A stretch of DNA of 64,000 bases from Candidatus Sulfopaludibacter sp. SbA3 (GTDB taxonomy: Bacteria > Acidobacteriota > Terriglobia > Bryobacterales > Bryobacteraceae): the NCBI GenBank assembly GCA_945893365.1, contig CAMDED010000011.1:1-64000 (forward strand), written 5' to 3'. Shown piece by piece: positions 39,330 to 41,272 of this stretch. The position numbers were made by a program, and so were the translations under genes. Under the pieces are notes generated by a model. That model was not told the DNA's origin and did no database searches. It saw only the letters and a program-made list of their open reading frames with translations. How positions within the stretch are numbered: position 1 is the stretch's first letter; each line of letters opens with the position of its first letter.

Positions 39330-40844
39330 ATGAGTCCGATGCGCGCGTTCTTGACCGTTATCGTGTGTCTATCCGCGGGCGCGCCGGCCCGCGCCGCGGA
39401 TGTCAAGCCGGGAGTGTTTGATGGAAATTCCGACGTCGGCGTCACGCCGAAAGCGGGCTCTACGGAATTCGACACCGCTCGCGGAGAGTACCGCATCACG
39501 GGCGGCGGCGCGAACACCTGGGCCAAAGCCGACGCCTTTCAATTCGCTTGGAAGCGAATCACGGGAGACGTGACCGTGACCGCCGATGTTGGGTTCATCG
39601 GCGCGGGCGCGGTGGCCCATAGAAAAGCGGCGCTGATGATCAGACAGAGCCTCGACGCCGGATCGGCATACGCCGATATCGCGGTGCACGGCGACGGCTT
39701 GACCGCGCTGCAATACAGGCCCGCAGCGGACGATGTTACGGCTGAGACGCGCTCGGAATTGAAAGCTCCGGTCCGGCTGCGCATCGAGCGCCGCGGCAAC
39801 CAGTTCACGGTGTTCGCCGGCGGCCCGGGAGGCGAGTTGAAGTCCACCGGACCCGTCACGGTCGCGATGCAGGGTCCGGTTTATGTGGGCCTCGCGGTGT
39901 GTTCGCACGACGCGAACGTTCTTGAAACCGCGGTCTTTTCGAACGTCGGAATTGAAACGCCTGTTCAACCCAGGGTCAGGAGTAAGATTTCGATCTACGA
40001 TCTGAAGCGCAAATCGACAGCGGTTATCTACACGGCGGACAAAGTATTTGAAGCCCCGAACTGGTCGCGCGACGGCAAGTTTCTGCTGGTGAATTCGGGC
40101 GGAAATCTGCTGACGCTCGATCTGGGCGCAAAGGGCGCGGAACCGCGGAAAATCGACCTTGGCTCGATCGCCGGCTGCAACAACGACCACGGTATTTCAC
40201 CCGATGGGAAGATGCTTTCCTTCTCCGCGCGCTCGGGCGGCGCGAGAGGCTCGCAAGTCTATCTTGCAAATGCGGACGGCTCGAACCCGCGCCTGATGAC
40301 GCCTAATACGCCAAGCTACTATCACGGCTGGTCGCCGGACGGAAAATGGCTCGCCTACACGGCGGAACGGAACGGCAATTTCGACGTTTACAGAATGGCG
40401 GTGACCGGTGGCGATGAGGAGCGGCTGACGTCCGCGAAAGGGCTCGATGACGGTCCCGATTATTCGCCGGATGGGAAGTGGATTTACGTCAACTCCGAGC
40501 GCACGGGTAACTTCGACGTCTGGCGGTTTCCGGCGGACGGCTCGGGACCGGACGACAAGCTGGCACAACAGGTGACGCGCGACGATCTCGAGGATTGGTT
40601 TCCGCATCCCTCCCCGGACGGGAAATGGATGGTCTTCGTTTCCTTCGAGAAAGGCACCAAGGGACATCCCGCCAATAAGAACGTTCAGCTGCGTCTGATG
40701 CGCTTGCCCGGCGCGAAGCTGAAACAGGATGCGCCCATCACGGTCCTGACCAGTTTGTTCGGAGGCCAAGGCACGATCAACGTGAATTCCTGGTCGCCCG
40801 ATTCCAAGCGGTTCGCGTTCGTGAGCTACGAGTTATTGAAATGA
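39330..40844 (+). CDS. Exported TolB-like beta-propeller with N-terminal lectin-like domain
   Basis: A 504-residue secreted protein (signal peptide FLTVIVCLSAGAPARA). Residues about 25-205 form a jelly-roll resembling DUF1349/concanavalin-type domains (AFQFAWKRITGDVTVTADV, then MIRQSLDAGSAYADIAV). Residues about 210-500 are TolB/WD40-like blades: APNWSRDGKFLLVNSGG, GISPDGKMLSFSAR, WSPDGKWLAYTAERNGNFDVYRM, YSPDGKWIYVNSERTGNFDVWRF and PSPDGKWMVFVSF. It may bind sugars or a partner protein in the periplasm. The gene overlaps the haemoglobin start by 4 bp. Confidence 0.8.
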   Translation: MSPMRAFLTVIVCLSAGAPARAADVKPGVFDGNSDVGVTPKAGSTEFDTARGEYRITGGGANTWAKADAFQFAWKRITGDVTVTADVGFIGAGAVAHRKAALMIRQSLDAGSAYADIAVHGDGLTALQYRPAADDVTAETRSELKAPVRLRIERRGNQFTVFAGGPGGELKSTGPVTVAMQGPVYVGLAVCSHDANVLETAVFSNVGIETPVQPRVRSKISIYDLKRKSTAVIYTADKVFEAPNWSRDGKFLLVNSGGNLLTLDLGAKGAEPRKIDLGSIAGCNNDHGISPDGKMLSFSARSGGARGSQVYLANADGSNPRLMTPNTPSYYHGWSPDGKWLAYTAERNGNFDVYRMAVTGGDEERLTSAKGLDDGPDYSPDGKWIYVNSERTGNFDVWRFPADGSGPDDKLAQQVTRDDLEDWFPHPSPDGKWMVFVSFEKGTKGHPANKNVQLRLMRLPGAKLKQDAPITVLTSLFGGQGTINVNSWSPDSKRFAFVSYELLK

Positions 40845-41272
40845 AACCGCGATTTCTCCCTTTGATCGCGCTCGCGCTCTGCCTCGTCGTTCCCGGGCAG
40901 CGGAAAGAAAGCGATGTCACGCTTTACAGCCGCATCGGCGGTTACGATGTGATCGCGGCCATCACGGACGGATATTTGAAGGGCGTGCGCGGCGATCCAA
41001 GTTTCGCCCGTTTTGCCGGACGCGGCACGGATTCTCTGAAGCGCGCAAGGCAATTCTTAAAGGACCAGTTGTGCGCTATGACCGGTGGATCCTGCGTCTA
41101 CGTGGGCCGCGACATGAAGACGGTCCGCGGCGGCCTCGGCATCACGGAGGCGGAATGGGCGGCGAGCATGAAGCACATGTCGGCGGCGCTCGAAGCCGTT
41201 CCCATCAAGTCGAAGGAGAGGGCGGAGTTCCTCGCGATGGTCGACGCGCTCAAGGGCGATTTCGTCGAATGA
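40841..41272 (+). CDS. Exported truncated haemoglobin (group I) with the proximal His replaced
   Basis: A 143-residue group-I truncated globin. An N-terminal signal peptide (RFLPLIALALCLVVPGQ) puts it in the periplasm, unusual for this family. The globin core is clear: TLYSRIGGYDVIAAITDGY, the Phe-rich FARFAG, LKDQLCAMTGG, and DMKTV, then GLGITEAEW. In other group-I truncated globins the residue after DMKTx is the proximal His that binds haem iron (VHxGxGIT). Here it is Arg96, codon CGC at 41126-41128. One CAC to CGC transition would explain it. Haem binding is doubtful unless another residue takes over. It is the last gene of an operon with the reductase and TolB-like protein. Confidence 0.85.
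   Translation: MKPRFLPLIALALCLVVPGQRKESDVTLYSRIGGYDVIAAITDGYLKGVRGDPSFARFAGRGTDSLKRARQFLKDQLCAMTGGSCVYVGRDMKTVRGGLGITEAEWAASMKHMSAALEAVPIKSKERAEFLAMVDALKGDFVE

Follow-up and report, generated by a model that had tools for sequence, protein, structure and literature searches.

Arginine at the proximal-histidine position of an exported truncated haemoglobin from Candidatus Sulfopaludibacter

Introduction

The iron of 2-on-2 globins is held by a sole bond to the protein, made by the proximal histidine at position F8. In a comparison of 1107 truncated haemoglobins (trHbs), this residue was described as 'strictly conserved' (Bustamante et al., 2016; PMC4720485). The methods of that study discarded sequences without an F8 histidine (PMC4720485). 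Such variants were therefore invisible to the survey, and the strictness of the conservation is partly built in. Our literature search for trHbs with a His-to-Arg change, or otherwise devoid of a proximal histidine, found nothing relevant. Human Hb Mozhaisk is an unstable variant with histidine replaced by arginine at beta-F8; the search gave nothing relevant to it among the matches listed, and it carries no weight as evidence here.

The gene described here lies in a stretch of 64,000 nucleotides from the soil bacterium Candidatus Sulfopaludibacter sp. SbA3 (contig CAMDED010000011.1, positions 1 to 64,000), referred to below as the window. It encodes an exported trHb in which the F8 codon specifies arginine.

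A group-I trHb with arginine at F8

The window globin (Table 1) scores 44 bits with the Pfam profile Bac_globin (PF01152), whose cut-off is 21; no NCBIfam family is assigned to it. Among solved structures, phmmer recovered HbN of Mycobacterium tuberculosis (1idr, 4e-10), with other group-I trHbs also near, and a Foldseek search with the predicted model agreed with the sequence in placing HbN at the top. Both glycine motifs of the family are present, G33-G34 at A-B and G82-G83 at the end of E. The N-terminus, judged from sequence, is hydrophobic and of the export type, a feature common to the orthologues. By family profile and fold, the protein belongs to the group-I trHbs; by the proximal histidine that characterizes the group it does not, as Arg96 occupies that place.

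In the HMMER alignment, the F region runs without gaps and Arg96 falls in the column of the HbN ligand. The first-pass annotation had read arginine from the proximal-histidine codon, and this reading stands. It had also placed the histidine two residues before a GxGIT motif, which is incorrect, since the position directly precedes GGLGIT (MKTV-R-GGLGIT). Its description of the remaining fold as well kept is broadly right, with two exceptions: the proline of the near-invariant GGP motif, residue 84, has become serine, and the predicted model has no F helix. The Cys pair, the distal positions and hydrophobic pocket residues (Met92, Tyr87) are all retained.

Table 1. Positions of the features discussed, numbered from the first letter of the window.
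Feature	Coordinates	Strand	Remarks
PD40 beta-propeller gene	39330-40844	+	upstream; 4-bp overlap (ATGA) with globin start; Pfam PD40; same order in sibling
Exported group-I truncated haemoglobin gene	40841-41272	+	143 aa; residues 1 to about 20, predicted signal peptide
Cys78...Cys85 pair flanking GG motif	41072-41095	+	probable disulfide of exported form
Ser84, codon TCC	41090-41092	+	Pro of GGP motif lost; Pro in 70 of 72 homologues, CCC in sibling
Short F-helix region M92-G98	41114-41133	+	predicted helix in sibling, not in window globin
Arg96, codon CGC	41126-41128	+	proximal-histidine (F8) position; under HbN His81
His112, sole other histidine	41174-41176	+	HbN H97 (G11) by register; His in 25 of 72 homologues

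Conservation of F8 among homologues

A scan of GTDB species genomes and a set of 237 genomes from the same family supplied the homologues, and 72 sequences were aligned, alignment being one of the checks that the first-pass annotation had proposed. Histidine fills the F8 column in 70 of the 72; arginine occurs in the window globin alone, and the distant homologue L011 has glutamate. The motif Y..GRDM[KR]..R.G, searched for as a degenerate DNA pattern in 396 genomes of the phylum, hit one, the window's own; its histidine counterpart, run likewise, hit 14. Eleven alignment columns are at least 97% conserved, of which the window globin breaks two, L011 four and all other sequences none or one. 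Cys78 and Cys85 occur together in each of the 34 homologues whose N-terminus resembles a signal peptide but in only 22 of the remaining 38, a distribution that suggests a disulfide in exported trHbs. Homologues from Mycobacterium and Mycolicibacterium (L054-L056, L059, L062-L066; about 50% identity) have no signal peptide and nest within the acidobacterial clade of the tree, which suggests horizontal transfer.

Another genus of the same family (Bryobacteraceae) holds a globin without histidine in the normal F8 place. Its representatives L093 (genome G026) and L094 (G227) are orthologues from two species, are 80% identical and match Bac_globin at 34-39 bits. Their F motif reads YHGPATVVAEEH[LI]T, compared with YxGRDMKTxHxGMGIT in the others; glutamate stands at the usual position and a histidine follows two residues on, after a shortening by two residues. 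This downstream histidine could be a shifted ligand, or haem could be bound by a different one. The proline of GGP is lost here too (GGP to GGA), and there are extra histidines. As the variant is conserved in two species, it is not an error. The genes of this exported clade (L093:1501-1938 and L094:1501-1920; also L011) adjoin genes for an SDR and a prolyl-oligopeptidase-type peptidase.

The sibling orthologue and the timing of the change

An orthologue from the same genus (L005, identical to L045; SYKU01000251.1), hereafter the sibling, is 73% identical to the window globin and forms a sister pair with it in the tree (support 100/98). Its gene comes after the propeller gene, as in the window, and the convergent gene opposite is also the same. 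The globin and its convergent neighbour were both missing from a third member of the genus (G002), whose genome is 73% complete, so that this absence carries no information. The sibling has CAC at F8, which bears out the earlier remark that CGC is one transition from a histidine codon. Because it also has CCC at residue 84, both H96R and P84S arose on the window lineage, and each is explicable by one transition.

The rest of the gene evolves under normal constraint. Between window and sibling, dN/dS over the mature domain is 0.166, compared with 0.15-0.20 for pairs of the histidine-bearing trio L020-L022, and the terminal branch of the window globin (0.17) is no longer than that of the sibling (0.23). 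Neither measure gives any sign of relaxed selection, and a long-standing loss of function does not fit them. The change therefore looks recent or isolated; a recent event, an error and selection for the change would each be consistent with this pattern. Nor is there an established non-haem lineage, as the ligand is missing in one genome and the sister orthologue has it.

Alternative ligands and the F helix

The first-pass annotation had offered haem loss, another ligand or a new role as ways to explain the arginine, and had named a conserved histidine elsewhere as one observation that would overturn its reading. The alignment of 72 holds no such residue. His112 was considered as a replacement ligand and rejected; it is poorly conserved, lies in the G11 register and matches no known proximal position. 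The suggestion of haem loss is borne out to the extent that the normal ligand appears to be gone with no conserved histidine to substitute for it.

AlphaFold models of the window globin and the sibling were built with one identical set of 37 sequences as the alignment. They agree outside the F block. Within it, block confidence differs (pLDDT 91 with a helix at 92-96 in the sibling, 66 with no helix in the window globin), by a method that is uncalibrated for point substitutions. The models are suggestive of a local loss of the F helix in the window globin.

Gene neighbourhood and other globins

A new role beside a reductase and a propeller is not supported by the comparisons. Close relatives keep the histidine, and arginine occurs in one genome. 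No aldo/keto-reductase gene lies upstream of the sibling globin, and the order of PD40 and globin genes is confined to the genus among the relatives compared. The aldo/keto-reductase gene, the SMP-30/gluconolactonase-like gene and the multihaem cytochrome gene are absent from the vicinity of the globins of other relatives. In the sibling, the propeller gene (L045:3981-4990) has lost an internal segment and is broken up over different frames, which reflects either real decay or a draft-assembly fault.

The window's genome encodes two more globins that keep the F8 histidine, one an ankyrin-repeat fusion and one adjoining a ferredoxin-type reductase. The fusion (L001:694-2178, minus strand) joins Bac_globin to ankyrin repeats and has histidine in the F motif SLRESHRRF. 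A fusion of DUF4394 with a group-I globin domain occurs in several genomes of one genus (L035:847-1917, also L042 and L044; confirmed by Pfam for L035 alone).

Weighing the explanations

We lean, by a little, towards a reading in which an otherwise canonical exported globin recently lost its haem-iron ligand on this lineage alone, probably with impaired haem binding as a result. An ordinary exported group-I trHb would have changed F8 from histidine to arginine by a single A-to-G transition, accompanied by P84S in the loop leading into the F helix. Because arginine is a poor iron ligand, the protein would bind haem weakly or not natively at all, so native ligation may be lost or weakened, and periplasmic NO/O2 chemistry or another haem-linked role would be gone or much reduced. 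With two canonical globins encoded at other loci, the bacterium could tolerate such a loss, and the gene would so far be free of visible decay. On the evidence of the alignments and the tree, the position of the change, its uniqueness, its lineage and the normal constraint on the rest of the gene are established. Two observations count against a loss: an intact open reading frame with a signal peptide means that the globin could be functional, and an arginine confined to a single genome may reflect an error at the assembly or strain level.

Such an error is the strongest of the rivals, though unlikely. The organism would truly have His96, and the arginine would come from a consensus error or from a minority strain's base in a draft genome that was probably assembled from a metagenome. 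At 299 contigs the assembly is fragmented, a single transition in a single codon of a single genome is concerned, and all close orthologues have histidine. However, P84S is a second near-invariant change 36 bases away in the same intact frame. RpoB of the window's genome, moreover, breaks 2 of 572 invariant columns, within the range of the other genomes in the set (0-13), which indicates that the consensus is not unusually bad. A functional globin that is independent of haem or alternatively ligated, serving a new function in binding or sensing, or holding haem through Tyr45 (B10), His112, Met92 or Arg96, seems quite unlikely. The intact frame, export signal, Cys pair and Met92/Tyr87 pocket favour it, as do purifying selection across most of the branch, the L093/L094 clade and known non-haem globin domains such as that of RsbR (PMC6614362). 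Against these stand the confinement of arginine to one species, the want of a compensating residue, the unconserved neighbours and the unpredicted F helix. We give little credence to the narrower claim of a selected exported trHb that works without a proximal histidine, haem-free or with a non-histidine ligand. The comparisons gave no positive support for a selected new role, and a damaging mutation or a draft-genome error is more likely than a new invention.

Engineered myoglobin cavity mutants hold haem through the pocket or an exogenous ligand. The window globin, with its distal and hydrophobic pocket positions retained, might likewise keep haem, with function altered and not lost; this is the least probable of the readings, as a charged arginine facing the iron would suit haem less well than a cavity does. 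Should the base be real, the window globin is a natural F8 His-to-Arg trHb that has a close histidine-bearing orthologue, and the two make a pair for testing how far 2-on-2 globins depend on their sole protein-iron bond.

Comparison with known systems

With M. tuberculosis HbN, the window globin shares the fold, the GG motifs, the YxGxxM motif preceding F together with the F motif, and the 2-on-2 helix order. Unlike HbN, it has arginine at F8, GGS in place of GGP, an export signal with a Cys pair and another register of the E helix. It is closer to the exported trHbs with the motif LC..GGPCxYxGRDMKTxH from Bryobacteraceae and other phyla (the sibling, L019-L024 and relatives), which include its same-genus orthologue with the same gene order and, at 57-73% identity, its closest clade; in contrast to the window globin, all of these have the F8 histidine and Pro84. 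The N-terminal domain of RsbR resembles the window globin in having a globin-type fold without a haem ligand (PMC6614362). However, that domain belongs to another globin family, serves as a cytoplasmic sensor and lost its ligand long ago, whereas the window globin would represent a recent single substitution.
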